Virus record (IMG/VR): IMGVR_UViG_3300030331_006178
Span: 1-59,319 of that record
Source: a virus
Direction: 5' to 3' (one strand)
Length of the DNA: 59,319 nt
A program made the translations under genes and the position numbers. Numbering within the stretch: position 1 is the stretch's first letter; each line of letters starts with the position of its first letter. A model generated the notes under the pieces. That model ran no database searches. It worked only from the letters and a program-made list of their open reading frames with translations, and was not told the origin of the DNA. Of this stretch, positions 26,934 through 49,400 are shown piece after piece.

Positions 26934-29900
26934 ATGACTTCAATTAAAAGATGGTATGTACAAAAAACAATAACTAGAATATCTCAACAACAGGCTTTAG
27001 AGGTTGTTGAAAATTCTGATGAACAATTTATAAATGCACAGCTGAGTAGAACTGGTTTTATTCAAAATAAAATACAAGGCGCAGGAGAAATAGTTCACTG
27101 TGTCGTTAAGTATCCTTTAGAATATTTACGAAAAGAATGGGAGATACAACAGTTCAGCAAACAAGTATATTTACAAGAAATAAAAAGCAATTGGTATAAC
27201 ACTTTTTTTGATTTTATTATTAGTGATTTTGTTGAGAATGAAAGATCTAAAATTGAAAAAGTGGGCAGATATCTTGAAGGAGATAGTTCTTTGACGCTAC
27301 CAGCGCTAGAAAGAGAGTTGGTCTCGGGCGAGGGCATTGTCTTGAGATCTCTGATTGAAGACAATAGTTCAATAGTAGCAACCGGCAAGTATTATGTTGA
27401 TACTGGAAAGCCACTTGCTGGTTCTTTGGTCACTTTTCAAGGGCTGATGATTATACCAAAAAACGTTGTTGAAGCCCCAGCGCCACAAATTGATGGGATT
27501 CGTCCCTTGTCTTTAGTCGAAATAAGAGAAATAGCTTGCAGTCCAAAGCCTGAAAATGAAAGAAAAATAAAACCTGACGATCCTGGCGCAGAATTGGGTA
27601 TCAAAAAGAAAAAAGTAACCACATCGGATAGAAAAAGAAAGCAATTATCAAAAAAACAAAAAATAGATATTTCTAGGGCAGTGAAAGCAAAGTTAAATCA
27701 AGTTGGAGATGCTGCATTTCTAAATGCGCTAGCCAATGCAGATCAAATTAAAACGACTAGAGATGCATTTGATTTTGTTTTAAATGTGTTGCCTTTGCGT
27801 CAAATGGTACAAATTGCATTAGATTGTGCAAAAAAGTTTATACAAGAGACTCCTGATAGTGCAATATGCGACGTTATAATGCGAAATCTTTCAAATCAAG
27901 ATGTTGTAATATTGTTGCGTTATGCAAATATAAACTTAACAACTGACCTCATCGCAGCGCAATTTAAAACGGAACTAATGAATAAATTTGAAGGATCAGC
28001 TGAAGACGATCCAGTCGGGTTTAAAAACTTTTTACAAACAGAGTTCAATAATAACGTAGGCACCAGAGAAATAATATGTGCAATGGTTTTTGCTGCAATA
28101 CCCGCCGCAGCTGCACTGCTAGCTTTGTATTTAAAACAAGATTTCTCTAATTTGACTTCTGATGGTACTTGCGGCAATCCTTTACTGCCAAACGAAAAAG
28201 AAATTAAAAAATTATTAGAAAATCCGGCACGAACGGCATTAGAACAAATTGAAAAAGGAATAAAATCCCACCCTATACTTTCTTTTACAAAAAACTTTAC
28301 CGATAACATGTTAAAACAGGTTATTTTATTTGTCGATCAATTGATAGTCCAAAGCATATCTTTAATGCTACAAGAGTTAGCTTTTCTTTGTGATGGAAGC
28401 AATAAATCTGATTATGCTAATTCAAAGACGACAAGTCCCTTTAATTCAAATATCGATGAACTAAACACAAATGCTAATATTTATGATGAATTATTTAATG
28501 ATCTAAATCTAAGCACCGACACAGAAGATGATATCGATAAAGAGCTAATAACAAATTTCTTTTCAGACATATCTTCTCTTTTAACATTATCTGAGATATG
28601 TGTGTTATTTACTGGTAACCCTAATGAGATAAACTATTCAATTGTTGTTGATAAGATTTTTTATGGGCTGCTTGCCCTAGATTCTTATGGGTCACTGAGA
28701 AACAAACTTAACACAAAACAAAAACTAGTAGACTTTTTAAATATCTTTGCAGAGAGTTTTGATGCAAAACTTTGTAACGAAAGAATAGAAAATTTAATAA
28801 AATCAAAAAAATTAATATCTGAGCTTTGCGATCCGCCTTCAAGTGAGGCTTTAACTAATGAATTAAGAGAGAAAGCAGTAAAAAGCGCAGTCGACGAGCT
28901 ATTAGATCAAGAGCAAGATCTTTTAAACGATTTGTTAGACACTATCAATAGTGTTGTTTCACCTGAAACCCCAGAGGTGTTCTGTGGTCCTGAAGCTGAT
29001 AAACAGGGAAAAACTCCGCTTGTTCCAAGTTTTCAAGAACCCAGTCAGTTATATTTAGCAAAAAGGTTTCTTAGAACAACATTTAAAGCTGCCGAGAAAT
29101 TATTTGAAGGAGAAGTAAAAAGTTTTAAATCGATTTTAACAAAGCCAGCACAATTTGCTAGCAACCCAGATGATTTAGTAGGCTCAATAAGCAAATCGTT
29201 CACCGCGGCAGGACAAGTTGGTAAAGTTATGAGTCAACTTTACTCAATTGGAAATGAAAAAGCTAAAAGTAAACTAAACAGTACACCAGGATACGGAGAT
29301 GCGAATTCATTAGAATCTGTCCTGCAGAGTTATGCAAGTGATAACAAACTAGTAGCAAAGAAAGTTAATGATTTTTTAATAGGAGTCCAATCGGATTTGC
29401 AAACAGAGGTGATCACCGCAGCTGGCGGTCCTGTGTTCAAATATACTATATCCGGTGGAAATGACTTTAGTGATCTATTATATGTTTTAAATTATTCTAG
29501 CAATGATTTTGTCATTGAAGGGTTACCAATAGATTCAGCAATAGTTGAATCAGGCTTTTCAAGATTGGTTTATAATGGAGGCGAGGCTTCATATTCATCA
29601 GAGCTTCCCGTATTACCAGATGATAATAACAACCCCTATGTTTATAATAATTTAGACTTACTAGAGACAAAATCCACTTTTACTTCTTTTATAAAATTAA
29701 TGGTTTCGGACAATAGCTTTTTTGCAAATAACTTAGAGCAAATAATAAGAGAGCATGCAGAATATATAACTACGGTTGATTTGTTTAAAAAAGATAAGTT
29801 TAGCAATTTAACTCTAGTAAAAGATAATAATTGTGACTTTTCTCTTTTTTATTATGGAGATATATTAAATAAACTAGAGCAAAGAGCAAAAAAAGTTGAA

Positions 29901-32195
29901 TGTTTAACTGGATTTGGTGCTATACCAACGCCCTCTGAAAAAGCGCTTTTAACCTCGATTTATGAGGGCATGATTCGTGTGATAATAACAAATGAAATGA
30001 TGAAAAGCTTTTTTGTTTTTGCTTCTTTTGGATTAGAGGCGCTTTTGCCTACTGAAGAACAATTACAGTTAGGGTCTTTGGGCAAAAACCTATCTTCATT
30101 TTATTTTGATTATTTAATTGAAGAAATAGAAGCCAGGACAAACCAGTTGAATATATTAACTCCAAAGCTCAGAAGAATTATAACGGAAGTGTATGCAGCA
30201 GAGCGCGATAAAAAACTTACTGAAACTAATTTTAATGAAGCAAACCTTCACTTCATTCAAGGTTCAGCGAGAATAGTACAACAAATACTAGCCCAAAAAT
30301 TGAATAAGTCGGGGATACCAACGAAGCTTATTGAAACTGATGCTTCTTATGGAATAGTCGCGCAAGAATTTATAGGTGCTTTGTCGCCGCAAGATAAATA
30401 TACACAAATATTAGAGAATATAATATCTACAAATCCCGCCGCGGACTCTGGTGGTTGTTATGCACCTCCAGCTATAATAGATGTTGATTATAACGATAAA
30501 TATGTTTTAATAGAACAAACATACAGTAAAAATCCACGTTTATACAATGGTGGTTTTTTTGTGGAAAAAGGCATCGAAGTGTTTCATAATCGCCCGGGAG
30601 ACACAGCACCTGGCGGATTTGATGTAAATAGGTTTATGAAGTACGTCAACGCGCTACCTATAGTGCTCACTCCTGTTCCTACAGAACAAATAGATTACTA
30701 TAATAGAGGTCTATCGAACACGCTTGGGGACGTCTCGATCCCCACTCAGCTTAGAAATATCATTGAAATACTTTTAGGCGAGACGGCTGATGATTTTGAT
30801 TCTAGAGTTCAAGATTATATTTTTGGAGCATCTAGGCAAGTTGGAGATTCACCAAAAAAGAAGGCAGCGATTTATGTATCAGCGACAAGTCAAGACAGTG
30901 TTGAGGATATAAGTTTTTATTCATCCAAGCAAGGAAAAATAGTAGCTAGTCCTTCTTCAATAGATTACTTGGAATACAAGTCACTCAATGTCACCTTGGA
31001 ACAATTTGCAAACAAGTTTTATGATGGCTTGGAGGTAGCTAGAACTCAATTGGGAGAAAGTGTAATTTATGATAATTTAGGTAGTTTGTTTCCCTTTGCA
31101 CAATCAGCTAGCCAGATAAACATACTTGCAAGAGAGGAACTAAAAAAATTAGGAAAATACTTTAATACTTTTAGAACATATAAAACTTTAAATTTATTGT
31201 TAAGAGTAGAAGATACAGAGTTTGTACAAGGCTACTATGATCTTATAAAACAAGCTATAAATCTTGCAGATAATGCGTTTTCAGATGATCTTAGAGAGAT
31301 TATAAATTCTAGTTTAAAAAGAAAGTTCTTTGTTAAAGAGCAAAATGGTCCATTATATTTTAAATTACCCTTGATAAGCGTTAATAACGATATAACAGAT
31401 GCAAGCTTAATAGAAGATGCTTTCAATCAGCTAGAAGAATATGATTTATTTTCAGAGCAAAAGTTAACTTTTGACTTCGCAGAAAAAGCAGACTTTCAAA
31501 ATTTGGTTACATTTACTCAATATGAAAATATTCTTTCATTTGTGTCTGTTTTAGTTACAGAATTAGTTGATTCAAGCTACCCGTCTTTAAACTCAGTTTT
31601 TAACAAAACATTACTAGTTCTGCAGAATAGTATGAAAAATATGGAAAACATTGCAAATCGAGATAACAATCCAAACGTATATGAAGCCAATCCAAACATA
31701 GCAGAATTTAATTCACCAAACCAAGCAGATATGGATTTGATTGGCTTGTTTGTAGAGGGTGTGCTTAAAGCCGTAGCAAACATGACAGATCCCACTTGGA
31801 GAACACCGTGGTTTTTGCCGGGACCTTTGACTCCTTTTGGAATTATAGCAAAAATTTTAGACGGTTCGGACGATGTTTCAGACGTTAATGCCGCAACTAA
31901 ACAAAATGAGGTTACGCAGCAGGATTTAGAAAGAGCTTACAATGAAGGAAACTGTGACGAGTTGACCCCAGATATATCAAAAGCTGTATCAGAAGTCATA
32001 ACAAATGAAGAACCAATAGAAGTGATAACAGATATTTTAGCAGGCACTCAAACTCAAGAGGCTGTTGACTCGACTCCAATCGTCGAATCAGATGATAATA
32101 TAAATCAAACGGTTCAGTCTCAAGATGTGCAACAGGACACTGGCACTTTGGTGAGCGATGTCTTGGGTCCAACGCTTAATATACCTGGAACTTAG
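26934..32195 (+). CDS. 1753-residue structural protein with shared C-terminal tail
   Basis: A very large, mostly helical and hydrophilic protein with no membrane anchor beyond a short hydrophobic stretch around residue 390. It lies between the spike and gp25 genes, so it is most likely a baseplate or tail component. I recognise no catalytic motif. Its last 32 residues (1722-1753, NINQT...PTLNIPGT) closely resemble residues 1136-1165 of the 1179-aa protein at 46406 (about 21 of 29 aligned identical), although the rest of the two proteins does not obviously align. Candidate roles are tail tube or hub scaffold. Confidence 0.8.
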   Translation: MTSIKRWYVQKTITRISQQQALEVVENSDEQFINAQLSRTGFIQNKIQGAGEIVHCVVKYPLEYLRKEWEIQQFSKQVYLQEIKSNWYNTFFDFIISDFVENERSKIEKVGRYLEGDSSLTLPALERELVSGEGIVLRSLIEDNSSIVATGKYYVDTGKPLAGSLVTFQGLMIIPKNVVEAPAPQIDGIRPLSLVEIREIACSPKPENERKIKPDDPGAELGIKKKKVTTSDRKRKQLSKKQKIDISRAVKAKLNQVGDAAFLNALANADQIKTTRDAFDFVLNVLPLRQMVQIALDCAKKFIQETPDSAICDVIMRNLSNQDVVILLRYANINLTTDLIAAQFKTELMNKFEGSAEDDPVGFKNFLQTEFNNNVGTREIICAMVFAAIPAAAALLALYLKQDFSNLTSDGTCGNPLLPNEKEIKKLLENPARTALEQIEKGIKSHPILSFTKNFTDNMLKQVILFVDQLIVQSISLMLQELAFLCDGSNKSDYANSKTTSPFNSNIDELNTNANIYDELFNDLNLSTDTEDDIDKELITNFFSDISSLLTLSEICVLFTGNPNEINYSIVVDKIFYGLLALDSYGSLRNKLNTKQKLVDFLNIFAESFDAKLCNERIENLIKSKKLISELCDPPSSEALTNELREKAVKSAVDELLDQEQDLLNDLLDTINSVVSPETPEVFCGPEADKQGKTPLVPSFQEPSQLYLAKRFLRTTFKAAEKLFEGEVKSFKSILTKPAQFASNPDDLVGSISKSFTAAGQVGKVMSQLYSIGNEKAKSKLNSTPGYGDANSLESVLQSYASDNKLVAKKVNDFLIGVQSDLQTEVITAAGGPVFKYTISGGNDFSDLLYVLNYSSNDFVIEGLPIDSAIVESGFSRLVYNGGEASYSSELPVLPDDNNNPYVYNNLDLLETKSTFTSFIKLMVSDNSFFANNLEQIIREHAEYITTVDLFKKDKFSNLTLVKDNNCDFSLFYYGDILNKLEQRAKKVECLTGFGAIPTPSEKALLTSIYEGMIRVIITNEMMKSFFVFASFGLEALLPTEEQLQLGSLGKNLSSFYFDYLIEEIEARTNQLNILTPKLRRIITEVYAAERDKKLTETNFNEANLHFIQGSARIVQQILAQKLNKSGIPTKLIETDASYGIVAQEFIGALSPQDKYTQILENIISTNPAADSGGCYAPPAIIDVDYNDKYVLIEQTYSKNPRLYNGGFFVEKGIEVFHNRPGDTAPGGFDVNRFMKYVNALPIVLTPVPTEQIDYYNRGLSNTLGDVSIPTQLRNIIEILLGETADDFDSRVQDYIFGASRQVGDSPKKKAAIYVSATSQDSVEDISFYSSKQGKIVASPSSIDYLEYKSLNVTLEQFANKFYDGLEVARTQLGESVIYDNLGSLFPFAQSASQINILAREELKKLGKYFNTFRTYKTLNLLLRVEDTEFVQGYYDLIKQAINLADNAFSDDLREIINSSLKRKFFVKEQNGPLYFKLPLISVNNDITDASLIEDAFNQLEEYDLFSEQKLTFDFAEKADFQNLVTFTQYENILSFVSVLVTELVDSSYPSLNSVFNKTLLVLQNSMKNMENIANRDNNPNVYEANPNIAEFNSPNQADMDLIGLFVEGVLKAVANMTDPTWRTPWFLPGPLTPFGIIAKILDGSDDVSDVNAATKQNEVTQQDLERAYNEGNCDELTPDISKAVSEVITNEEPIEVITDILAGTQTQEAVDSTPIVESDDNINQTVQSQDVQQDTGTLVSDVLGPTLNIPGT

Positions 32196-32266: not shown

Positions 32267-32683
32267 ATGTCCACTGCTCGTAATATGACAAATGGTATTG
32301 ATGCTGCATTGCCGTTACAAGAGGACAATGTTGATTTATTCTATAAACTTCACAAAAATTTAAAAGATAATATCAAGCAAAACTTAAAAATGCTTTTATA
32401 TACCGCACCAGGCGAGAGAATTATGGTTCCTGAATATGGAGTGGGGTTGAGAAATTTTTTGTTCGAGCAATCACCAGAAGATGATATAAAAGAAGCCATA
32501 TTTGAACAAGTTGCAATATATGTCCCACAGGTTGAAATATTATCTTTAGAAGTTTCAAGGGCGGAAGATAGAGAAATAGCTAAAGTAGGACAATCAAACA
32601 CCTTAACTATTAATCTCGTATACGAAATTAACGGGTTTAACGTTAGAGATTCAATAATAGCAGTTGATAGTTCTCCTAATTAA
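32267..32683 (+). CDS. gp25: Baseplate wedge protein gp25-like
   Basis: A 138-residue member of the gp25/GPW family, near the 132 residues of T4 gp25. The core LKMLLYTAPGERIMVPEYGVGLRNFLFE (residues about 41-68) contains the hallmark P-G-E-R...P-E-Y-G-V-G-L segment. The protein joins the gp6-gp7-gp53 wedge and the sheath start in contractile tails. AAGGAG at 32253-32258 precedes the ATG. It sits directly before the gp6-like gene, as in many myoviruses. Confidence 0.93.
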   Translation: MSTARNMTNGIDAALPLQEDNVDLFYKLHKNLKDNIKQNLKMLLYTAPGERIMVPEYGVGLRNFLFEQSPEDDIKEAIFEQVAIYVPQVEILSLEVSRAEDREIAKVGQSNTLTINLVYEINGFNVRDSIIAVDSSPN

Positions 32684-32709: not shown

Positions 32710-34509
32710 ATGGTAGACAGTAAAAAACCAGCAATTGATTATACCAGTAGAGATTTCAATTCAATTAAATCCGATTTGGTTGACTATGCAAGAAGATACT
32801 ATCCAGATACATTCAGAGATTTTTCTATCAACTCTTTTGGCTCCTTAATGTTAGATACGGTTTCGTATGTTGGTGATATTTTATCTTTTTATCTAGATTA
32901 TCAAGTTAATGAAAGTTTTTTATCCACCGCCACAGAATATGATAACATATTAAAAATCTCAAGGCAATTGGGGCTAAAGGCAGATTTGGCGCCTGCATCT
33001 TATGGGGTTTTAACTTTTTTTGTTTTAGTACCAGCAGCATCTAATGGTGCTCCTGATTTTGACTATGCACCAATATTGAAATCAAATAGTAAATTCACAA
33101 CTACAGACGGAAGAACATTTACATTGCTTGAGGATGTTAATTTTAAGGACACTGATCAAAATGAAATTGTAGTTGGCGAGGTTGACTCAAACACGTCTGT
33201 GCCGACTAGCTACGCTATTAGGGCGAGAGGTCAAGCCATTTCCGGAGAACTAGCCGTTTATGAGGAAGTGTTGGGTGGGTATCAAAGATTCAGGAGAGTT
33301 GTTGTACCGGGAGAAAATATATCTGAAGTGGTATCTGTTATCGACTCAGAAGGAAATGTTTTTTTTGAAGTTGATTATTTGTCTCAAAATACAGTATACA
33401 CAACCCTTGAAAATAAAAGTGAGAGTAGAACAACAGTACCCAACATATTAAAACCAATAGCAGTGCCCAGAAGATATGTGGTAAGTAAAGAAAGAGATAA
33501 TGTAATTTTACAGTTCGGTTTTGGAACAAACGAAAATGTATCTGAAGTTCTTGACCCTAGTAATGTTTTAGTACAAGAGCACGGTAAAAAACACATAACT
33601 GATGATTCTTTTGATCCCGCTTCTTTGATCAAAACAGACAGTTTGGGCGTGAGTCCTAGCAACACCGTTCTAAGAGTGATCTATAGGGTGAACGGCGCTG
33701 AGAATACTAATGCGGCAGCAAATACTATCACTATACCAGGAGAAGCTATACTTACTTTTTCTAGTGAAGAAGAATTAGATTCAACTCTTGTGCAAAACAC
33801 AAGACAAAGCTTAGAGGTTACAAATGAAACTGCTTTTGTTGGCTCAAACCCGTTACCGAACTCAGATGAGCTAAAAGAAAGAGCGTTTGGCGTCTATTCT
33901 ATGCAAAACAGGATAGTTACAAAAGAAGACTTAATAACAGCAGCCTACAACATGCCAAAGAATTTTGGTTCAATTAAAAAAGCAATGGCTTACCAAGACT
34001 CAGATTCCTTTAATCAAAGAAATATTAATTTATATGTTATGTCACAAGGGTCTGATGGCAAATTAGAAAAATCAAATACAATTATAAAAAATAATTTAAA
34101 AACCTATCTTTCAAGATTTAAAATGATCAATGACACGATTGATATATTAGATGCGAACATAATAAACTTAAGAGTCAATTTTAGCATAATAGCTTTTCCA
34201 GACGTTGAAAAGTTTAGGGCTTTGGATCTTGCAAAAAGAGATTTAGTTAGGTTTTTTAACAATAGAACAAATTATGAAATAGGTGAATCTTTTTATATTA
34301 CTGATATTTTTAGTGTTTTAAAGAACTCTTCTTTGGTTTTAGATGTTGTAGAGGTTGACGTGGTTACGAAAACGGGTGCTTTATATGCTGATACAAATTT
34401 CAACGCTTCTGTGAACAAAAGTGCAGATGGTAGAAGAATTTTGTGTCCTTTTGATTCTGTTTTTGAAATTAAATTTCCTGATACTGACTTGGTGGGGACA
34501 ATTAAATAA
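32710..34509 (+). CDS. gp6: Baseplate wedge protein gp6-like (baseplate J family)
   Basis: A 599-residue baseplate J/gp6-like protein; T4 gp6 has 660. The N-terminal YTSRDFNSIKSDLVDYARRY and SFGSLMLDTVSYVGDILSFY stretch (about 12-70) is typical of gp6 of T4-like phages. The LPNSDELKERA...QNRIVTKEDL region near 383-410 is the conserved J-domain part. gp6 dimers form the inner ring of the baseplate. It follows gp25 and overlaps the next gene by one base (TAATG). Confidence 0.9.
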   Translation: MVDSKKPAIDYTSRDFNSIKSDLVDYARRYYPDTFRDFSINSFGSLMLDTVSYVGDILSFYLDYQVNESFLSTATEYDNILKISRQLGLKADLAPASYGVLTFFVLVPAASNGAPDFDYAPILKSNSKFTTTDGRTFTLLEDVNFKDTDQNEIVVGEVDSNTSVPTSYAIRARGQAISGELAVYEEVLGGYQRFRRVVVPGENISEVVSVIDSEGNVFFEVDYLSQNTVYTTLENKSESRTTVPNILKPIAVPRRYVVSKERDNVILQFGFGTNENVSEVLDPSNVLVQEHGKKHITDDSFDPASLIKTDSLGVSPSNTVLRVIYRVNGAENTNAAANTITIPGEAILTFSSEEELDSTLVQNTRQSLEVTNETAFVGSNPLPNSDELKERAFGVYSMQNRIVTKEDLITAAYNMPKNFGSIKKAMAYQDSDSFNQRNINLYVMSQGSDGKLEKSNTIIKNNLKTYLSRFKMINDTIDILDANIINLRVNFSIIAFPDVEKFRALDLAKRDLVRFFNNRTNYEIGESFYITDIFSVLKNSSLVLDVVEVDVVTKTGALYADTNFNASVNKSADGRRILCPFDSVFEIKFPDTDLVGTIK

Positions 34510-35994: not shown

Positions 35995-38900
35995 ATGTCC
36001 TTAAAAGATTTATTTAAAGAACAACAATATAAAAATCTATCTAATTCTTCGATATCTTCTTTAACTGCTAGTGGAGTTGAGTCAGCAGGATATATAGAGG
36101 CATATTTAGAAGATCGAAATAGATTTATACCATTAGTAGATTTCTCCCAGCCTGCGAATTTTGCTCGTTTTGGCTCCGCAGAAAAATATTATTTTGATTC
36201 GATAAGAAGAGTATATCAAACCTACCCATATGATGGCTCCAAAAAAGAGAAGATACAGTGGGAGTTATCTTCATCTGGGCTAGATTTATATCTTTTTGAA
36301 AACGAATACCCTAGAACCACTGGTTTCGCAGTGTTTTCAACCTCTAGTTTGACAGCAACAGATACTTCAACAAATTATTCTGTTTGGGGTTCATATGGCG
36401 CCGCAGGCAGCGGCACTTACGAATATGTTTCATTTAATGGCGGTCCACACGCTGGTGAAGGCAGTGCGGTACACATTGACCCCGACACAGGAGAAGCCCA
36501 TTACAGAGAAAAAGCCAATCTTTATGATTTATCAAAAAATAGAGAGTGTAATCTAAAAATAGGCGGCGATGACGGCAATACAATAGAATTTTGGCTTAAA
36601 AAAGCAGCGTTTAACACTAACGCCACTCAGACCGAGGTTATTTTTGATATATTCACCACGTCTTCAATATCTTCAAGTTTAGACTATGGACGCATGACGG
36701 TGGAGGTATCAGGACACGGCGCAGGAACAAATACGCTATCTCCTTTTTATGTTACCTACCTATCGGGTACTTCTGGAATATCTAAGCAAAACATTGGTGC
36801 ATCAATTACAACTTCTTCCGTTGCAGATGATAACTGGCACCACTATTCATTTAGATTTAAAAATGAGGGCTCTAACACCTCCGTGGATCTTTTTGTTGAC
36901 GGAGATTTTAATCATAACATAAAAACAGGCACTACGACTGATTATGTTAGTGGTACGCTGGTTGGTACTATCGGCGCCCTAGCGACTGAGCCTTCAGGTA
37001 CACACGCGGGCTCTCCTCAAGCTGGAGAGGGTTGGGGTAAACTGTCTGGTTCTGTTGATGAACTAAGATTTTGGAAAGTTTGGAGAAATTCTCAGCAAAT
37101 ACAGACTCGCTGGTTCGATCAAGTTGGCGGCGGAACAAACACAGATGATGCTAATACTAATTTAGGGTTGTATTACAAATTCAACGAGGGAATAACTTTA
37201 ACCTCTTCAACAGATTCTGTAGTTTTAGATTATTCAGGCAGGATTAGTAATGGAACATGGGTAGGGTATTCTTCACTTTTCTCTAGAGACACAGGCTCAG
37301 CTATCAATGAAACCAATTTAACTAATTTTTCAGGGAGTGAATTTAGAGATCCTATATTATATGCATACCATCCTGAAGTACAATCTTTCTTATCTGATAA
37401 AAGAAAAGAAGGTAAAGAATATGATTATGGAAACCCATCTACAATATATTACTCACTGCCCTCTTGGTTAATTGAAGAGCATGATGCAAATGATCCTGAT
37501 GGCGAAGGAATAATATCAAACTCTCTTTGGAATCTCACACAAATATTAAGTAGCTACTTTGATAATGCAGCTAATTTAATGAAATCATTACCAGATTTAG
37601 CGCAAACAGAATATGTTAGCGGCTCGCAAAAACCTATTCCATTTATGAATAGAATTCTTGAATCAAAAGGCTTTGTTGCCCCAGAGTTGTTTAACGCCAT
37701 TGATGCACTAGAGAATTTTGAAAATAGAGATAATAATTCAATATATACGGAAAAAATATCAGATATTAAGAATATTATTTATAGAAACATTTACAACAAT
37801 CTAACTTTTATAAATAAATCAAAAGGCACTGAAAAATCATTTAGAAATTTGATTCGCTGCTTTGGTATAGATGATAAGATATATAAATTAAATTATTATT
37901 CCAACAACGTAGATTATATATTAGAAGACAATTACAGATCTGTTGCTGATAAATTTAAATTAGTTGATTTTAACACTTTACTACACACTAATGCAGTCGT
38001 GTACCAGTATTCCAGTAGTTTAAATTCTAATTCAACAACGTTTATTTCGGCTAGTAAAGATTTCACACCAGCGACCTCACAAGAAGCTGGATTGCCATTT
38101 AGCGTTGAAGCAAATTTAATTTTTCCAAATAGGGTAGATATATCCGACTATCACACCCTTGTAAGCAATGATCCAACATTTAGAAATAACTATCCCTTGT
38201 TTCTTACTGCAAGCATGTTTGGTATGCATACAGCCATTGATTCAACTCCCGCTGAAACAACTTGGAACACTAATGATTTTGCAAACTTTGTAGTAAAAGC
38301 AGTTAAGCCATCGTTGTTTTCTAATAAAGCAAAATTTGTTTTGACCGGTACAGCCGCCGGCTTTATACCAGAGCTTACCTCTTCTTTCATAGATGATATT
38401 TATGCTGATACCGATTGGAGTTTTCTAGTTTCTCTGTACCCAGAAAAGTTTCCAAATGTCAATGAGGTTTCGGGAGCAGCTGCTGATGAGAGTGGATATA
38501 TAGTTGAATTCACTGGTATTAATAAAGTTTTAGATACAGTAATAAACGAGTTTACTCTAACAGGCACTTTAGCGGCTGACGAAGCAACTAAGTTTTTAGC
38601 ATCTCCAAAGCGAGTTTTTGTTGGTTCACACAGGGACAACTTTACAGGCTCAGTGTTGCAACAAACAGATATTAAATTTAACACTATACGCGTTTGGCAG
38701 AACAAACTTACTGCAAAAGACTTATCGGTACATGCTTCAGACCCAAACAACTACAGCATTAAAAACCCGGAGCAAAATGCTTATCTTTTCAATACAAAAA
38801 TAAACAAAGTTTATGTTCCAAACAAAGAAACTATGCTTCTGCATTGGAACTTTAATAATGTAACGGGCTCTGATGCTTCAGGTGAATTTATAGTAGATGA

Positions 38901-41900
38901 TTTGACCTCTGGTTCAAGCACTCAAATCAATAGATATGGCTTCTTAACCAACCTATCAAATAAACAATTTACTGGACGTGGAGAAGATTTTGCAGCCTCT
39001 AGCACGGCAGTAGTTTCAATTGACGACTTCGTAGTTGCAAAACCTAACCTACCAGAAGTTTTATCGAGTGAAAACACAATAAAAGTGCTTTCAAACGACG
39101 ATATATATTTCACCAGAGACAGTAGACCGACTTTCTTTGATTTATATGTAGAAAAAAGTCCCTATCAAAACATCTCAGAAGAAATGTTAAAGTTTATGTC
39201 CACCGTTGTTGATTTTAATAACTTAATAGGTTCTGCGGTGGATAGGTATCGCGGTGAATATAAAGCTTTAAAAATGCTTAGGCAATTGTTTTTCCAGCGT
39301 ATGGATACTCCGAACGTAGATAAATATATTGAGTATTTCAAGTGGTTTGACTTAGCAGTCTCTGCTATGATCCAAAAGCTGGCGCCAATGTCTTCAGGGC
39401 TAAATGATAGACCTTTAAGGAATATTATTGAATCTCACATTCTTGAAAGAAACAAATATCAATCAAAGTTTCCCACTTATGAGTTTAAGCAGACAGACCC
39501 TGAAGCCAGGCTGTTTGGTGTTAATGAATTAACTTATCCGTGGAAAGAAGGGCATGCCCCTCTTAGCTTCGCGGCATCTGATCAGGATGATAATTGTCTT
39601 TGGTTAAAAGAGAGAGCAGAAAGGACTGGCTCAATATCTAGTGGGGATATAAATGTAGACTCAGACCGTCAAGAAATATTAGACGTAATAAACAATCTTA
39701 ACAACGCAACGCCACCAAACTTAAGCGGCTCAGACGGCACCTATCAAGGTTCAACATATGCCCTTCGCCGCTTCGCAAGACCATATAAAATAAATGCTGT
39801 AAAGCAGTCCGATATACACGGCGGCTCAAATGGATATGATAATAAAAAAGTTGGTTTCTGGGACGCCATAAGAAAGCGCCCAACACCTTCAGAGCCTGGT
39901 GAAGGCGGCTTGATTTCAATTGAGCCACCAGATTCTTCACTAGAAGAGTTTAAAGATTGCGATGATAATCTTATCTTAAACAAAGGTAAAAGAAGATTTA
40001 GCTTCTCTGCCGGCACAGCCATTGACGGTGCAGAGAACTTTAGTGATGTCTTTAAAGGGCAGCTTATTTTTCCGTTTAGCTTGTATAGCTCCTCAGTAAC
40101 AGATAACCCTGCCATGGCTGACCTAGAAGACTTTAAAGCAAATTTAGCAGTTACCAATCTACATCACGATTCTTATGGACCAGATAGAGATGTTCCAATG
40201 CAGGGACCATTTACAGAGAAATATGTTGGCGGTCGATCTTACAGACACGTAATGAGTAACCTTACGCCTAATAATACGACTCCATTGGTTGAAGGTCAAA
40301 GATTAGAGGGTTGGAGACTAACGGGAAGTGTAGAGGGCAATTTAGATTTAACAAATGTATCAGTGCATAATCCAAAATCAGTCTTCTTAAGGGAAGAGTA
40401 TGCAAAAAGACCTGTAAATATAAAGAATATCCAACAACTAACGGGCGCTTCTGATAGCACCGGCATTCACCCTGAGTCATCAACAAAGATAGGAAATTAT
40501 ACAAATACTTATGAAATTGTAATGACTAACGGTCGTTCTTTAAATAATCGTTATTTGGTTGAATCTGATGGCTTTTTATCAACCACGACACCTGATTCTT
40601 TATTTGTCTCTGGTGTAATTGATTTTCCACTTCCAAGAAGAGACTTGACGGGTTCAAACAAAGCTATTATTGTAAATAGATTTTCCTCTCCGGGCGACCC
40701 AGCAACAATGGGCGAAGGTATGCTGGACACAGCAGCTGCTGAATTTAGTGTTTATAATGCGCTACCCTTTAGAAATTTATCTGTGCGACTACCACTACAA
40801 GAACTTTTAACAGATCACGCAAATCAATTTGGATTATTTAGTGATCAATTCACGGTCGCTGCTTTTGCAAGAGCAGGAAAAGACTATGCGGCTGTGGGTG
40901 GCTCATCTTCTATTAACGATCCTGGTGCAGACTTAGACTACATAGGCACAGGTTCTTTTCACAAAGTAAACAGAAACGGAAGAAAACAACCAAAATATTC
41001 AAATGAGTTTACAGGCGATACAGGTACTATTTCGACCAATCCTGTGTTTGATAACTTTTTTGTACAACATCAGATACCACAAACAGATGTACAATATTCT
41101 TGGATTACAGCAAGCTTAATTAATACATATACTGGAAGTGCATTATTTGGTTTTGAACAGCCAGATTTTAGCAATGCTAGTCTTGCCTCTACTGATTTAA
41201 CATTTGTAAGCGCTTCTGATTCTGGTAGTTTGAATATAAAAGTAGATTTTGCTGGGCTGAATACTCTTGTCATAGACAATGTGTTGTCTGCGTCTAATCT
41301 ATTATCAAGTTCTGATTATTATAATGATGATATTGAAAGTTTAGATGACGCATTGACCACTAACGCAGTTATTTCTCATCGTGGAGGTCCCGCAGGCGGA
41401 TCCAATTGGAAACTTTATAGAAAAGATGGTCATCCAATTGTAAGAGCACACAGGGTGGAAAATAGAATAAGCTTTTTAAATGAAAAAATTATTTTTGAAA
41501 ACGACAGCCCCGCTCTTGAGGTTACTATAGACTCTGTTATTGAACCACCGATAACGAGTAAATATAAAAAAATAACGCACGTGGTTGTTGATAGGGAGAG
41601 TGGTGATGAAGTAGCAATAGATCACACCTATATGAACAACATTCGTTATTTCACAGATCACACTCTTGATAATCTTGATTTGGATGCTAAATTGCTAGAT
41701 CCACAAAGAAACAAAAAAGCAGATCAACAAATGCTTGATATCATTAATTATTATTTATATCAAGCAAATGACTTCGCTGATGCCCCAGAACTCAATCCGA
41801 TATCAGGCTTAGTGAAATTAATTACAAGAGAGACAATATTCCCAAGAGAACAAAACACCTACCTATCAACTCATAGGCAAAGAAGTGATTTCCTTAGCTT

Positions 41901-44900
41901 CATATGGCGAGACGATATAAAAGTAAGAAAGCAAAAAGGTTCGCAAGATCCGATTGTAAAAAACCTTAGTTTGGATTCCACCCCTTATGGGTTTTTAGAT
42001 ATAACTAGCATGAGCAACGCACGAACCGGCGGCGGCTCAATTTCCGCTAGTATATTCCCACTTGACGCAAGAGGCGATGTCCCTAATACAATCGTACCTG
42101 GTGAAGATAAGGTAGATAGCATGGAAGATTTGACTCAACAACCTTTCGAAACTTGTAATATTGCTATAATAAGACCTAATAATATTTGTGGACAGTTTCC
42201 GGGGATCTTCACCGGCGCCAGCTTTATAACACCAAGTACGACAGGCGAGCAATTGCCTACCGTGCTATTTAGCACAACCGCCACTGACGGCGCTGGAATA
42301 TTACAAAATGCTATTCTACCTTTCTCATGGTATAATAAATTTGTTAACCGAATTGATCTACGGATAGACGAGGGCTTTGTACGAGGCTATTCGACATTAG
42401 TACCTCAGTATAACAGAAGATTTGCCGGCGCCCTACCGGAGGACGGCACGCTGCGTATATATAGCGCATCGACTCCAGAGCAAGCAGTTCCGCGTTCGGG
42501 TGTAGAATATAAATTTGGAGATACAAAGTGGGAAGCTGGTGAACAATCTGGAAAGTCACCTTTTTACGATAGCTACTCCGATTACATTGAAGACATCAAA
42601 AGAGCGGGTAAAGACTTTAGCCTAATACCGGAGTTTAGAATTTCTGAGCATATGGATTTTTATCTTAATAAAGCAGAAAATGGTTTCTTAACCGCTCCAG
42701 ACACTGCGTTTGAATTAACTGGCACTGTTGTTTCTTCTAGTGCAAATGAAGAATTTGCAAAAGTTTACTCTAATTCTGATTTCTTAAAAACCTTTGCAGT
42801 TGTTAACGATTTTTATGGTGCGCAAACCACACCATCAAAAATAACTTTATCTGCAGAAGCATTAATAAAATTCTTACCTTACAGCGGCTTTTATCCTGCA
42901 GATAGAACTGTTGAGTTGTCTAAATTGTTTTTTCAAAGCTATTCTGCTAGTGTCAATATAACAGGTTCATTCACGAACTTTGATAGCACTACAATTACCG
43001 CCGGTGATACAATCATTGGTCAAACTGCCGGCGGCATGTACCCAATTTGGAAACCTTTATTCGCTCCTGGTATTTTATTTAATAGTATTAAATCGGGCAT
43101 TGCTGTTGATTACCCAGTTCATACATCAAACGTACAGCTTGATACCAGAGGTGTAGCTGGTAATTATAATCGAACAATGAATGGACAGTTTTTAGAAAAC
43201 ATTCCAAGAATCGCAACTGATTTTGATTTTAGAGTGCCCTTTGAAGCGCTTTTAAATCCTGAAGGTCATTTAAATCAGTTTATCGTTAGTAGTGAGCCGC
43301 ATCCAACAGCTGCTTTCGGCGCCACACCGCATCAAAAAACAGGTAGCTCTGAGGGTCAAGGCACTCAGCGAATGTCTGCTTCACTAGCTGCTCCTGGTAA
43401 GTTAAATTACAAATTAGCTATGAATAACTTTTTAGCTTCAACTATTGATTTCTTTAAGCCAGGGGGCAATTTAACAACAATTGCTTCCAAGCCTGATACA
43501 AACACTGATGGTTTTGGTGTAAATTTTGATTCAACAAAAGAATATAGAATGAGAGTAGTTTGCTATAATGGGATACGATCAACATTTGAAGAGCTTAGTG
43601 CTAGTATAAATGCAGGAGCATCTGATAACCCGGCTGCTACATTTCAAAATCCTGAAATAGTTCCTTCTTATAGAATCAACCCTGCGTCATGTGTTATGTA
43701 TAGACAAGATGGCTTAAATGTACAAGCAGATATGTATGGCGCCGCATTTGGTCCACCTTGTGATTCCAGCGGTTCTTTATCAATGGATCGATCTGGTCTT
43801 ACTGATACTCAAGCCACGACTCCACTGTACGGAACTGCATCCTTTGAACCGTTCACACCGCCATATTATGATGGATATAGTCATATTGAGTTTATTTTTA
43901 GACCGGAAGATGCTGATATATTCCAACCAGAGGATTTAAGCATACCAGCTATTTTATCTAATGTGGAACAAAATGGTTTTGGATTTAAAAGATTTGTAAC
44001 CCAACACGTACCAGGTTTAGGGTTCGATGACCTCGGCAACAGTTCTGTGGCTACAAAAAACAGAATGCAGCTAACATCAAGTATAAACTTAAGTGTGATT
44101 GAGAACGCGTCAGTTGACTTTGATGCGTTTGGGAACCCCCAGGTGATTAAAAAAGGTGGAGATACATCAAATGTTTTAACCATTCAGCCAAAGTGGGAGA
44201 CACCTATTCTTGACTTTAAAGATGTCGCAGCGACGCTACCAGTCAGTGGCTCCGGTTCTATTGCAAAAGGAATGTGGCATCAGTATGGTGTGAAACCGTC
44301 AGGTAGCAATGGAATATTCTTGCAAATACAAAACATTGCAGATTCCGAAAAAACAAACATAGCAAAAACTGGATCACTAGCCGATCTTCTTGGCTTTGAT
44401 ACTAATCCTCGTAAACTGGGGCAAGTTGCTGAGTCTAAAAAGATTTCTGAGGCTATTGTAGCTATACCATTCTTTAAAGATTTTAGTGGAAATATCAAGA
44501 AGTTTAATCTAAACAAAAAAGCTGTCGCAGTAGCAGAAGAAATAGTCGCTAAAAAAGAGGCTGGACTCCAACCTGATATAAGTGCTGAAAAACCAGATAT
44601 CGCAATTATTGATATGGTTTCTAAAATGAAAAAGTTTATTGTCCCACCTCACTTTGATTTTGTTAGAAACAAAGATGTAGTTGATCCCTTTGCAATGTTT
44701 ATATTTGAATTTGAAGTCAGTTTAACAGAAAAAGATTTAACAGACATATGGCAGAATTTAGAGCCAACTGTCGCAAGAAGCTTCCAAAAATCCGAAGCCT
44801 CTTTGCCGGTTGATATTTTTTCACCGCAGGATGTAGGTGCCGCTACGGGGGCTGATGGTCTGTTACCTGGAGAGGTAAATTTAGGCAAACAGTACGCTTT

Positions 44901-45315
44901 AATGGAGATTTTCCCAGAAAACACACAATGGATGGTGTTTAAGATAAAACAACGCTCAGCATTCAACTATTTTGCAAAAACAGCTGATTCATCAGATGAT
45001 TCAAACTTTAAATTTGATTTTGGTTTTGGTAGCAATGGTGAATCAACAAGCACCACACCAGATTATAGTTACAACTGGCCATTCGATTTCTTTAGTTTGA
45101 TTGAGCTAGCAAAAATAGATGCAAATTTAGAAATGACACCAACAGATTTTCTTAAAAAAGTTGAGATAGAAAACAAAGTAGTCGATAACTCAGTTGCGGG
45201 TGTGCCCATTACAAGTGAAAAGGCGCAAGCTTTAACACCAAAGCCTAATGATTTACAGATTGCGCCTTCTATACCAGACACCACCGGCATCGGATTTGAT
45301 GGAGGTTCTAATTAA
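35995..45315 (+). CDS. 3106-residue structural protein with two LamG/concanavalin-like domains
   Basis: The largest protein in the window. Residues about 130-430 form a LamG-type lectin domain: NTIEFWLKK, DNWHHYSFRFK, VDLFVDGDF, VDELRFWKVWRN and GLYYKFNEG are all in order. A second, more divergent copy spans about 700-985 (FSVEANLIFP, IRVWQNKLTAKDL, LLHWNFNN). The long remainder is beta-rich, with a C-terminal PPHFDF...PFAMFIFEFE...DIWQNL segment around 2880-2930. It is probably a baseplate-attached fibre or host-recognition protein. No signal peptide. Confidence 0.85.
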   Translation: MSLKDLFKEQQYKNLSNSSISSLTASGVESAGYIEAYLEDRNRFIPLVDFSQPANFARFGSAEKYYFDSIRRVYQTYPYDGSKKEKIQWELSSSGLDLYLFENEYPRTTGFAVFSTSSLTATDTSTNYSVWGSYGAAGSGTYEYVSFNGGPHAGEGSAVHIDPDTGEAHYREKANLYDLSKNRECNLKIGGDDGNTIEFWLKKAAFNTNATQTEVIFDIFTTSSISSSLDYGRMTVEVSGHGAGTNTLSPFYVTYLSGTSGISKQNIGASITTSSVADDNWHHYSFRFKNEGSNTSVDLFVDGDFNHNIKTGTTTDYVSGTLVGTIGALATEPSGTHAGSPQAGEGWGKLSGSVDELRFWKVWRNSQQIQTRWFDQVGGGTNTDDANTNLGLYYKFNEGITLTSSTDSVVLDYSGRISNGTWVGYSSLFSRDTGSAINETNLTNFSGSEFRDPILYAYHPEVQSFLSDKRKEGKEYDYGNPSTIYYSLPSWLIEEHDANDPDGEGIISNSLWNLTQILSSYFDNAANLMKSLPDLAQTEYVSGSQKPIPFMNRILESKGFVAPELFNAIDALENFENRDNNSIYTEKISDIKNIIYRNIYNNLTFINKSKGTEKSFRNLIRCFGIDDKIYKLNYYSNNVDYILEDNYRSVADKFKLVDFNTLLHTNAVVYQYSSSLNSNSTTFISASKDFTPATSQEAGLPFSVEANLIFPNRVDISDYHTLVSNDPTFRNNYPLFLTASMFGMHTAIDSTPAETTWNTNDFANFVVKAVKPSLFSNKAKFVLTGTAAGFIPELTSSFIDDIYADTDWSFLVSLYPEKFPNVNEVSGAAADESGYIVEFTGINKVLDTVINEFTLTGTLAADEATKFLASPKRVFVGSHRDNFTGSVLQQTDIKFNTIRVWQNKLTAKDLSVHASDPNNYSIKNPEQNAYLFNTKINKVYVPNKETMLLHWNFNNVTGSDASGEFIVDDLTSGSSTQINRYGFLTNLSNKQFTGRGEDFAASSTAVVSIDDFVVAKPNLPEVLSSENTIKVLSNDDIYFTRDSRPTFFDLYVEKSPYQNISEEMLKFMSTVVDFNNLIGSAVDRYRGEYKALKMLRQLFFQRMDTPNVDKYIEYFKWFDLAVSAMIQKLAPMSSGLNDRPLRNIIESHILERNKYQSKFPTYEFKQTDPEARLFGVNELTYPWKEGHAPLSFAASDQDDNCLWLKERAERTGSISSGDINVDSDRQEILDVINNLNNATPPNLSGSDGTYQGSTYALRRFARPYKINAVKQSDIHGGSNGYDNKKVGFWDAIRKRPTPSEPGEGGLISIEPPDSSLEEFKDCDDNLILNKGKRRFSFSAGTAIDGAENFSDVFKGQLIFPFSLYSSSVTDNPAMADLEDFKANLAVTNLHHDSYGPDRDVPMQGPFTEKYVGGRSYRHVMSNLTPNNTTPLVEGQRLEGWRLTGSVEGNLDLTNVSVHNPKSVFLREEYAKRPVNIKNIQQLTGASDSTGIHPESSTKIGNYTNTYEIVMTNGRSLNNRYLVESDGFLSTTTPDSLFVSGVIDFPLPRRDLTGSNKAIIVNRFSSPGDPATMGEGMLDTAAAEFSVYNALPFRNLSVRLPLQELLTDHANQFGLFSDQFTVAAFARAGKDYAAVGGSSSINDPGADLDYIGTGSFHKVNRNGRKQPKYSNEFTGDTGTISTNPVFDNFFVQHQIPQTDVQYSWITASLINTYTGSALFGFEQPDFSNASLASTDLTFVSASDSGSLNIKVDFAGLNTLVIDNVLSASNLLSSSDYYNDDIESLDDALTTNAVISHRGGPAGGSNWKLYRKDGHPIVRAHRVENRISFLNEKIIFENDSPALEVTIDSVIEPPITSKYKKITHVVVDRESGDEVAIDHTYMNNIRYFTDHTLDNLDLDAKLLDPQRNKKADQQMLDIINYYLYQANDFADAPELNPISGLVKLITRETIFPREQNTYLSTHRQRSDFLSFIWRDDIKVRKQKGSQDPIVKNLSLDSTPYGFLDITSMSNARTGGGSISASIFPLDARGDVPNTIVPGEDKVDSMEDLTQQPFETCNIAIIRPNNICGQFPGIFTGASFITPSTTGEQLPTVLFSTTATDGAGILQNAILPFSWYNKFVNRIDLRIDEGFVRGYSTLVPQYNRRFAGALPEDGTLRIYSASTPEQAVPRSGVEYKFGDTKWEAGEQSGKSPFYDSYSDYIEDIKRAGKDFSLIPEFRISEHMDFYLNKAENGFLTAPDTAFELTGTVVSSSANEEFAKVYSNSDFLKTFAVVNDFYGAQTTPSKITLSAEALIKFLPYSGFYPADRTVELSKLFFQSYSASVNITGSFTNFDSTTITAGDTIIGQTAGGMYPIWKPLFAPGILFNSIKSGIAVDYPVHTSNVQLDTRGVAGNYNRTMNGQFLENIPRIATDFDFRVPFEALLNPEGHLNQFIVSSEPHPTAAFGATPHQKTGSSEGQGTQRMSASLAAPGKLNYKLAMNNFLASTIDFFKPGGNLTTIASKPDTNTDGFGVNFDSTKEYRMRVVCYNGIRSTFEELSASINAGASDNPAATFQNPEIVPSYRINPASCVMYRQDGLNVQADMYGAAFGPPCDSSGSLSMDRSGLTDTQATTPLYGTASFEPFTPPYYDGYSHIEFIFRPEDADIFQPEDLSIPAILSNVEQNGFGFKRFVTQHVPGLGFDDLGNSSVATKNRMQLTSSINLSVIENASVDFDAFGNPQVIKKGGDTSNVLTIQPKWETPILDFKDVAATLPVSGSGSIAKGMWHQYGVKPSGSNGIFLQIQNIADSEKTNIAKTGSLADLLGFDTNPRKLGQVAESKKISEAIVAIPFFKDFSGNIKKFNLNKKAVAVAEEIVAKKEAGLQPDISAEKPDIAIIDMVSKMKKFIVPPHFDFVRNKDVVDPFAMFIFEFEVSLTEKDLTDIWQNLEPTVARSFQKSEASLPVDIFSPQDVGAATGADGLLPGEVNLGKQYALMEIFPENTQWMVFKIKQRSAFNYFAKTADSSDDSNFKFDFGFGSNGESTSTTPDYSYNWPFDFFSLIELAKIDANLEMTPTDFLKKVEIENKVVDNSVAGVPITSEKAQALTPKPNDLQIAPSIPDTTGIGFDGGSN

Positions 45316-45320
45316 TAATA

Positions 45321-46406
45321 ATGAGTTACTTAGATCAAAAAGAAGAAGTTATAAGCTTGGAGTTAACTCCGTATGGAAAATATTTACTGTCGATCGGCGA
45401 GCTAGACCCAGTATACTATGCTTTTTTTGATGATGATATTATATATGATTCTGAGTACGCTAATATTGACGCAGAACCACAGAACAACGTCGAGCCTAGA
45501 ATTCAAGAAGAAACTCCTAGATTCGCAGCCCAAGGTGTTCAGACTAGCAGGGAAACTGATATTATCAGCAAAAGATTTGTCGAAGGAGGAATAGATCTTT
45601 TTGATCCACTCGATCCGACAACCTCTTGGCTTCTTAGTGAGGGTAGAACTAATGAAGTTATACTTTATAACTTGTTGACTCCACAACCTCTGTCGGATGA
45701 AAACACTCTTAAATGGCAGCCGATTGGAAAGTCCGATCCTTCAAAACAAAACGCTCCCGCGTGGAATGTTTCATTTCTTAAAGCTGAACTTTCTTCGTCC
45801 TCGGACACATTATTGATATCTGGCTCCCATGGAACTAGTCACTACAACGTGCCGCAGCTAAACAGCGAAGTCGAATATATAATTGAAAGAAACAGCAAAA
45901 AACACAATGTTCTCTATGCACCAGATAATTTAGTAGAAGAGCCAGATCCAACTACGAATCCAGAGTTACTAGACAGTCTTAGCATCCTACCGTATTCTAG
46001 CGGCGCCACCATTACGGTAAAAAAAGACTTTTTGGTGATTAGGGTTGAAGAGTCGAATGTTAATTTTGATAAAGAAAACTTTGAAATAGAACTTTTTGAA
46101 GTACAGACTTATCCTGTTACTGGAGAAGAGATTCTTAGCCCTATAAAATTTTATAAAAATGAAGAGGATGCTTTGCAAGACTCTATAAACAATAGGTCAC
46201 GACCGGATGTGGCTAACTGGTATTTTGATATTCTCGTAGATCAAGAAATCGGTAGTGATGTTATCTGTCCGTTAATCACAGAAGACAAGACAAAACAATT
46301 CTATAATACAAACATGTTTGGTTGTGAAGATATTGATTTGTTCAGAGGAGATGTTGTGCAAAATATTTATTTTGAAGAGGACGACACAAAGGATGTATGT
46401 GAATAA
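45321..46406 (+). CDS. Virion-associated protein with LT-x-x-G / DDDI N-terminal module
   Basis: A 361-residue acidic protein. Its first 45 residues (YLD...VI...LT-x2-G-x3-L-x2-G...FFDDDIIYDS) match the beginning of the 319-residue protein at 53643, suggesting a shared docking domain. The rest is unassigned and beta-rich. It lies between the giant LamG protein and the 1179-residue protein and ends in a TAATG overlap with the latter. Function unknown; baseplate or tail location is inferred from context. Confidence 0.72.
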   Translation: MSYLDQKEEVISLELTPYGKYLLSIGELDPVYYAFFDDDIIYDSEYANIDAEPQNNVEPRIQEETPRFAAQGVQTSRETDIISKRFVEGGIDLFDPLDPTTSWLLSEGRTNEVILYNLLTPQPLSDENTLKWQPIGKSDPSKQNAPAWNVSFLKAELSSSSDTLLISGSHGTSHYNVPQLNSEVEYIIERNSKKHNVLYAPDNLVEEPDPTTNPELLDSLSILPYSSGATITVKKDFLVIRVEESNVNFDKENFEIELFEVQTYPVTGEEILSPIKFYKNEEDALQDSINNRSRPDVANWYFDILVDQEIGSDVICPLITEDKTKQFYNTNMFGCEDIDLFRGDVVQNIYFEEDDTKDVCE

Positions 46407-49400
46407 TGATATCGCTAGAAAGTTTATCACAAGAGTTATTACCAAACATATATGTTAAAAATCTGACATTAAACACAGATTACAAAACTGTTGATAGTGA
46501 TACAGACAATAAGGGCAAATCCATACCAGATAATTCGTTTTCTAGTAATCTCACTTTGTCTTTAAAATTCTTAAAGAATCCTAAATTTCAATCCGAACTG
46601 GCTCTTTTGCTTGAATCCGAAATGATAGATTTGGTTAAAATATACGTACACCAGATTACTAGCAAGCCAGATTTTGAAGAACTTTACAAAGATGATATAA
46701 TAAACTCTGACGGAACACCAACAGAATTTGCGAAAACTGTATTGACGCAAGATAATTCTGAGTCACCATTCATCACAACTAAAATAAAATCTTTATTTGA
46801 AATATCTAAAAACTCTGAATTTGTAGGCTCAAATGGATTAACGCAGTTACCAGAGGAGCTATTAAGTGACGGCACAGCATTAAATGAAATCATTGGAGAA
46901 TTTCAATTTAATAACATTCCAAATGATACTGATTTTTTAGGATATGCTATAATAATTTCTATAAAATCAACGGCTGAAGCAGGAGAGGTTGACGCAATAT
47001 ATACAGATACATTTGTATCTAACATAACAAGAGAGATAGTAATCTTAGATGGTCAGTTACAAAACGAAGGTTTAATTTTTACCATAGCGCCGTTCGCTGC
47101 AGGCTCCGACATTTCAGCGCTATCTAAATTTGGGCAACCTGGAGACATCTGGGCAGGAGGAGTTCACATTCATGAGGGCAAATTTATGGCTGGACCTGTG
47201 CATAATCAGAACCCTCACCCCTTTTTAAATTACTCACTTGTTCCAATATCAAAATTCATTGACAACCGAGTGCGCACAAAAATAGAAAAAAACATATTAA
47301 ACATTACGAAGACGTTTGAAAAATTAAACTCTTTAACATCTCGATATAAAAGCTCTGCTAATCTTTTAGATTTTAATGAATATAAAAACAAAACATTTGT
47401 AAGTGATATATACCTCTCTCAAGATAGAAAAGGAAATGTTGAAGGCGCTTTTGTAGCTGATAAATTAGAATCCTTGAAAGGTAATTCTTCGTATGCATTT
47501 TTATTTGAAAATGCAAAACAGCTTTTTGCTAATGACTCCTCCTCATATCAGGAATTCGTAAATTTAATGATGCAGAAGTCTAAACTTATAAATGCGTATG
47601 TCTATGATGGTAACGTTACTTTGGGAACAATAACGGAAAACCAGTCCGAGTCTCGATATCCAAAAAACTTTTATGAAGTAAAAGACAGCGACAGAGAGTT
47701 TATTATAAACAAAAATAGCTTTATAATACCTAGAGATCCAAAAGCTCGATCTTCCTATTCTTCTATTGGTTTTGAATATTTTACTTTTAAGCACTATATT
47801 AGTGGCTATGAGTTAACAACTAAAAGCTATTCTACAGAGCTTGAATACATAGACCCAACTATTGAATTTGTTAAAGAGACCATACAAAGTTTAAGATTAA
47901 GTTCTAATAGTCTAAGCTCTTTGATTGACTTTATTAACAAAACACCCCCACCGAGCTTCACCGGCGCATCGAAAAGCAATGGTGGTTTTGATCTTGTTAC
48001 ACAAAGAATTAATCCTGATGTATTGAACAGTATAAAAAACAGCGGCGGACCAGAATTTGCTACAGTAGAACAAAATCAAAATATATATTTAAAATCTCTA
48101 CTTGATTTACCCTTTAAAAATATAGCTATATACTTTTATAGCCCAGAAAAAGGCTTAGATTATAAAGCATTTGAAAATTATATTAAAAACGTATCAAATT
48201 TAAATATTGCAACGTTAGATACGCTTCTTGTTGTAAATGATTTTTTAATTAATCTGATTTACAAAATGGAACTTTCATTAAACAGTTTTGGAATAAAACA
48301 GACCAAGGAACAAAGTCCTAATTCATATGGATATCAATTATCAATTGGTGATGTAAAAGCAAGATCAAGTACTAAAGCGATAAAAATCAAGCCATTGAAA
48401 AAGTCACAGATTACAATATATGAATATGGATATGACTTTACTGGGCTAATTGACTTTCAAAAAATATTTGGTGTGGAATATTTTAACGGTAGAGCGAAAG
48501 ACAAATTTTTAGATATATCAACAGCCGACTATATAAATGCCTGCATATATTCTTTTTTAGAAATTGGTGAGGTAAATAATATAAACTCAAACTTTATTTT
48601 AACCAATGGTGATATAAAGTCTGTTCAAGGGCTTTTATACTCGTATCTAAACACACCAGCATTATCAGCAGAAGTCTTTAAATCTTGTATAGTTCTACCA
48701 GAAATAGTGGCGAATTTAAGTTCTACAGAGGTGGGTCCCCAACAGGTGTTTACCAGCATAATAAAATATAAAAATGATATTTTTGAAAACAACTCGCATG
48801 GCATAAATGGACCATTAACTTCGGGCGTATCGTTAAAAGAAGATTTGATTACACTTTTAAATGCAGCCGGCACTACATTACCCTCTGTAAACCAAACTCA
48901 GCTAGGCATTGTTAAGGAAGCAACAATAAACCCAGTAGCCAGCGATTCTTTAGTTCAAGTCGGTTCCAACTCTAATAGTGTTAATGATTTATTGTCTGCT
49001 ACGACAAATATAGATCCTCAATTGACTGCTAATTCTAATAATTTTAAAGTAAACCCTTCTTACACAAGACAAGTTGTATTAGAGGCAAATAGCGATATTA
49101 GTAAAAATAATTTATTAAGTGCTTTGAATAATAGAAGTATAATAACAAATGTTATAAAGAATTTTTCTTTTAATATTGAAAAAGAAATATTTTTACCAAC
49201 GGATCAAAATAACTTTGCTGGTGAGATAAAAGCTCCATTACATGTGTTGTGCTTACCAGGTGCTATTTCAAAATTAGGAGGTCCTACGGCGAATCCGTTT
49301 AAACCTTTTGACTCAGCTGAAAATCTTTATATATCTAATGGGATTGTGGATCCTGCGTTGTTATCCTATTTTTGGTTTATACATCAAAATATTGTAAGAG

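Follow-up and report, generated by a model that had tools for sequence, protein, structure and literature searches.

A baseplate-type gene cluster with two giant proteins

The window analyzed here is the whole 59,319-nucleotide stretch of IMG/VR virus record IMGVR_UViG_3300030331_006178, and it contains a run of structural-type genes in the order P1, gp25-like, gp6-like, a 494-aa protein, P4, a 361-aa protein, P2, a small protein, and a 1039-aa protein. The members on which the analysis depends are the following.

26934–32195, + strand: P1, a 1,753-residue baseplate-cluster protein with the shared tail at its C-terminus (homologues found; no PHROG, Pfam, or PDB match)
32267–32683, + strand: gp25-like baseplate wedge protein (Pfam GPW_gp25, E = 5e-14; PHROG 261)
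32710–34509, + strand: gp6-like baseplate wedge protein (PHROG 219, E = 4e-19)
35995–45315, + strand: P4, a 3,106-residue giant whose homologue in another contig (G042) carries a different shared tail
46406–49945, + strand: P2, a 1,179-residue baseplate-cluster protein modeled as largely folded to about residue 1103 (homologues, model)

The adjoining gp25-like and gp6-like wedge genes identify the region as a T4-type contractile-tail baseplate neighborhood. Among cultivated phages, the gp6-like protein has its closest relatives at only about 29 to 30% identity (Microcystis phage Mel-JY01 and Flavobacterium phage immuto), and its counterpart in immuto is a baseplate wedge. Neither P1, P2, nor P4 matched a PHROG family, P1 and P2 had no match in Pfam, and the P1 profile found none among PDB sequences. 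Searches of the P1 and P2 models against PDB folds gave nothing at E ≤ 0.001 (the P1 model being poor), and the fold matches of P2 in BFVD were all unnamed or uncharacterized viral proteins. With no family or fold match to guide us, P1 and P2 are placed by synteny, and on that basis they probably belong in the baseplate. The first-pass annotation had called both proteins structural, which agrees with the gp25- and gp6-like neighbors, the basis being gene neighborhood and not proteomics.

Two other parts of the window deserve mention. Between P2 and P3 lies a small Arg/Glu-rich protein (50021–50482) that ends in RGRSGY; the small proteins at this position in close relatives begin alike (M[EQ][DE]F-like, followed by T--[YF]N) and are unrelated beyond that. 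Adjoining the tail genes are roughly 22 kb (480–22515) whose genes, judged by eye, resemble those for enzymes acting on sugars and nucleotide sugars (glycosyltransferase-, epimerase-, kinase-, and transketolase-like), and this region is in part 70 to 80% identical in the relatives G025 and G008 and elsewhere divergent.

One tail on two unrelated proteins

The C-terminal regions of P1 and P2 are organized as follows.

31788–31853, + strand: family-conserved DPTWRTPWFLPGPLTPFGIIAK segment of P1; homologues usually end about 19 to 80 residues later
31953–31958, + strand: conserved Cys-acidic end (C1674-D1675), near-terminal in most P1 homologues and followed here by the extra tail
31962–32192, + strand: extra 77-residue C-terminal extension of P1, with very low model confidence
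32052–32186, + strand: shared block in P1, residues 1707–1751, 24/45 identical to P2
32100–32186, + strand: shared core motif in P1, INQTVQSQDVQQDTGTLVSDVLGPTLNIP, residues 1723–1751 (motif search, BLASTP, codon alignment)
49715–49942, + strand: disordered C-terminal tail of P2, residues 1104–1179 (AlphaFold2 pLDDT below 50)
49766–49900, + strand: shared block in P2, residues 1121–1165 (alignment to P1)
49814–49900, + strand: shared core motif in P2, INQTIASEDVQQDTDNLISDTLAPTLNIP, residues 1137–1165, followed by a 14-residue Pro-rich end

The core aligns without gaps between P1 1723–1751 and P2 1137–1165, with 21 of 29 residues identical, and the likeness reaches upstream to P1 1707 and P2 1121, where the wider block of 45 residues retains 24 identities. 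BLASTP of P1 against P2 returns this tail alone (52 bits, E = 3e-10; P1 1694–1750 against P2 1108–1164), the second-best local alignment having an E value of 0.8. When the last 120 residues were shuffled, the maximum score was 50 to 55, compared with 134 for the real tails (z of about 15 to 17). The sharing reported by the first-pass annotation at 32097–32192 and 49811–49900 is thus real, with coordinates right to 1 or 2 residues, and its count of about 21 identities in 29 positions, with no visible alignment of the rest, was recovered exactly, the bodies being unrelated by BLASTP and by profile-profile comparison. The whole record holds exactly two copies of the motif; a further degenerate copy sought within the P1 extension was not significant (p 0.2 to 0.3). 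All the other pairs at a BLAST E value of <0.01 among the 49 proteins of the window are ordinary paralogues (enzymes or tube-like proteins). The motif is followed by 2 residues in P1, where it stands at the extreme C-terminus, and by 14 in P2, which rules out a strictly terminal signal.

The P1 family shows how unusual this ending is. About 53 homologues share the pattern DPTW-TPW--PGP-TP-GI-AK and then usually finish, some 20 to 80 residues on, with a Cys/acidic end; P1 of the window retains that end (NEGNCDE) and continues for 77 more residues that carry the motif. Some distant homologues bear other, unrelated C-terminal additions, about 109 to 446 residues long, which indicates that the P1 end accepts additions; the homologues in L269/L270, L277, L287–L289, and L291 run 231 to 446 residues past the DPTW-TPW motif. 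The tails of P2 homologues are very variable in sequence and length, or there is no tail at all. In the AlphaFold2 model of P2 (mean pLDDT of 68.5), a folded body is followed by disorder from residue 1104 to 1179, which puts the motif outside the folded body. The tail of P1 has the lowest pLDDT of its C-terminal model (about 26 to 35), a model that is poor throughout (mean of 54.9). The amphipathic moment of the core is marginal (p of about 0.07).

Two unrelated proteins of the cluster, P1 and the 361-aa protein (45321–46406, ending in NIYFEEDDTKDVCE), have in common a Cys close to the C-terminus with acidic neighbors, a feature that recurs across both families. Among homologues from 76 contigs, it lies in the last 8 residues of 61/64 homologues of the 361-aa protein and 23/42 of those of P1, and within 20 residues of the end in 31/42 P1 homologues, with a background of 70/1,109 other proteins. 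Some acidic codons of this end may overlap the ribosome-binding site of the next gene.

At the codon level, the two copies of the core are 76%, 79%, and 45% identical at positions 1, 2, and 3, respectively. The core is conserved as amino acid sequence, not as DNA: the copies differ by 29 nucleotide changes and still agree at 21 of the 29 residues, while 20,000 simulated trials under uniform substitution kept a mean of 11.6 and a maximum of 19 (p of about 5e-5). Taking both copies together, pN is 0.19 and pS is 0.80; uptake of a diverged P2 tail from another phage would give an equally low pN, so the figure speaks for constraint on the pair and not for constraint on P1 by itself. Synonymous sites are saturated, and therefore a duplicate produced by the assembly, a recent duplication, and ongoing gene conversion are excluded, as each would leave synonymous identity. 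With the motif in no searched relative, selection on the P1 copy cannot be separated from that on P2; if P1 took up a diverged P2 allele recently, the low pN would reflect constraint on P2 only.

Distribution among relatives and a second shared tail

A search of about 90 distinct related virus records, of the kind that recovers the copy in the window, gave no further example of the tail, and neither did a scan of IMG/VR with motif patterns, the INPHARED phage collection, or the loci examined in relatives. The nearest relatives examined (G025, G008, G003, G005, G004, and G009) have both proteins without this tail. The first-pass annotation had described the tail as conserved and proposed a motif search in relatives; that search yielded no copy outside the window record, and the tail is a lineage-specific addition, not a family-wide feature. 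The window is a fragment, and further carriers may exist, as may relatives closer than those covered by the search. A likeness between the P2 tails of the window and G003 is plausible by eye and not significant, so the direction of copying can be approached only indirectly.

Among 1,784 same-genome pairs of cluster proteins, strong tail sharing appeared in 2 of the 76 contigs, the window and G042 (L063). Sharing as rare as this is not a general principle of how baseplates are assembled in the group. The motif in G042 is another one, about 22 residues long (PVTTAVPGA-GG-FTAANAAQ), and is found on P2 and on the giant P4 of 3,500 residues, with a score of 148. Only 2 of 9,653 cross-genome control pairs scored ≥70, and the higher of them (93) paired the P4 of G042 with the P2 of a related phage. 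The sister phage G043 has this motif in P2 only. The pS of the G042 P4 copy is 0.28 against the P2 of G043 and 0.65 against its own P2 (0.74 between the two P2 copies). As the P4 copy is nearer at synonymous sites to the P2 of G043 than to its own, transfer between genes and phages is suggested, and most simply the P4 tail piece would have come from the P2 of a G043-like phage, a comparison that, over 22 codons, is suggestive and not decisive. The G042 data are compatible with recent uptake of a diverged P2 allele of the kind considered above for P1.

A third candidate, G049 (L042), scored 74 in the pair scan and was rejected as too weak (score of 58, z of 4, shuffle maximum of 54). Its tails are internally repetitive, with a direct repeat, NITVEAAPTVTNLSTGFQG, in P2 and repeats like DKNIPVGTNL in P4, and their weak mutual similarity is possibly a degenerate third case.

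Another type of ending recurs in these families. A Gly-rich end with a terminal or near-terminal Tyr/Phe is present in 28/69 P2 and 10/68 P4 homologues (for example, in G048, G054, G058, G066, G008, and G009) versus 2/1,109 other proteins. It is also seen on small proteins encoded after P2 (G003, G013, G020, and G022) and on the 50021–50482 protein of the window, and where P2 lacks it, P4 or the small protein just after P2 often has one. The P4 of the window ends in DGGSN (45280–45330), and the Gly-Gly end of P2 or P4 arises in several cases from in-frame reading of the Shine-Dalgarno leader that precedes the next gene (GGAGGTTCTAATTA...ATG), a stretch that is noncoding in G025 and G005. How a protein ends can thus depend on a ribosome-binding site, and we rejected the family-wide Gly-rich-Tyr end as a docking motif, since it is at least partly the ribosome-binding leader of the next gene.

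A probable docking peptide, apparently copied between baseplate genes

The shared tail is real and unusual, with one independent parallel and a narrow distribution, and from these data we infer a docking function. The reading that we favor, with about even confidence, is that a disordered docking peptide was copied between baseplate genes and takes P1 and P2 to one common partner. The tail would be one homologous, intrinsically disordered segment of about 45 residues with a 29-residue core, and one of the two genes would have received its coding DNA as a copy from the other. The likelier donor is P2, because P2 homologues often have long variable tails and P1 homologues normally stop at the Cys/acidic end. 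The core, kept at the same protein sequence in both genes, would then act as the docking peptide, perhaps with SxDVQQDTxxLxSDxL forming a short amphipathic helix and PTLNIP extended after it, and the tails would tether P1 and P2 to one baseplate partner or to adjacent copies of one subunit. Docking is favored because the tail sits beyond the folded part of P2, is kept as protein, and has apparently moved between genes of one machine, and because peptides of this sort serve in virions to dock or target proteins. The first-pass annotation had offered docking, trafficking, or cleavage as possible roles; docking is the best supported of them, by the disorder, a pN far below pS, and the second motif case, while a trafficking or cleavage signal fits poorly with a motif that is not strictly terminal, occurs in one phage only, and has no aligned prohead-protease-like site.

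The main rival is that illegitimate or interphage recombination attached DNA of the P2 tail to P1 at its 3' end, where it has no selected function; the likeness of the proteins would then mirror constraint on P2 alleles only, and the P1 end would tolerate additions. The unrelated additions on distant P1 ends (about 109 to 446 residues), the hypervariability of P2 tails, and the synonymous closeness of the G042 P4 copy to the P2 of another phage all speak for it. Constraint on the P2 tail core would still need a reason, however, and both independent cases join proteins of the same baseplate cluster and not random genes; we hold such a transfer to be a serious possibility, though an unlikely one. 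It is improbable that the motif zips P1 to P2 tail to tail with no third partner: the same motif does stand on two neighbors in one machine, and a stretch of the core may be amphipathic, but the core contains two prolines and is short as well as acidic and polar, its moment is marginal (as given above), and no structure supports the pairing.

The remaining readings are weaker still. A cleavage or assembly-trafficking signal, such as a prohead-protease-type site removed at maturation, could draw on the single (L/I)xE triplet found upstream of the core in each tail (IVE in P1, IQE in P2). These triplets are not aligned with each other and are common by chance, the motif is phage specific, and P1 and P2 are baseplate-cluster proteins, while the T4 prohead protease acts on head proteins, all of which leaves this reading very improbable. 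We give hardly any credence to a nucleotide-level element (ribosome-binding site, promoter, or recombination site) that both genes happen to translate; the Gly-rich-Tyr ends that coincide with a Shine-Dalgarno leader in some P2/P4 homologues provide a precedent, but in the tail the third codon positions are far less alike than the first and second. Lastly, full-length paralogy of P1 and P2, which the first-pass annotation had named as the explanation that would make the tail ordinary, is effectively excluded at the sensitivity of these comparisons, as BLASTP aligns the tail only, the family-against-family hhalign probability is 0.1, and distant relatives hold homologues of both proteins without the tail.

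Phage tail fiber genes exchange modules: recombination carries pieces of structural proteins from gene to gene and from phage to phage. The shared peptide resembles this exchange in that a segment of a structural protein apparently moved between genes, and differs in that tail fiber exchange usually involves receptor-binding or chaperone domains, while here it is a disordered tail of about 30 to 45 residues on baseplate-cluster proteins. The capsid targeting sequence (CTS) of T4 is cleaved by the head protease. Like the tail, it is a single short peptide on otherwise unlike proteins. The CTS joins the diverse internal proteins IPI to IPIII to the head core and so places otherwise highly diverse proteins in the virion (PMC3012670); it is N-terminal and acts in the head, unlike the tail described here, which is C-terminal, on baseplate-cluster proteins, and found in one phage. 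In Pseudomonas phage E217, C-terminal extensions recruit neighbors by added strands, as in the gateway-to-sheath contact (PMC10329688). Like the tail, these arms are C-terminal and outside the folded body, and they dock by intermolecular beta-strands in a contractile tail (PMC10329688); unlike it, they are protein specific and ordered in the virion, while here one sequence with no predicted strand stands on two unrelated proteins.

A broader and more speculative idea, which we consider rather doubtful, is that of a portable docking code, in which the disordered C-terminal tails of the giant baseplate proteins in this group would carry lineage-specific address peptides, each on at least two proteins and spread by recombination between genes and phages. 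If true, assembly partners would be rewired by swapping tails, not folded domains. The baseplates of large uncultured viruses hold giant proteins without a known family, and peptides common to two baseplate-cluster proteins are direct handles on the parts that contact a common site. Our results suggest that one component can acquire a docking sequence from another, by which the recruitment of new virion parts becomes testable.
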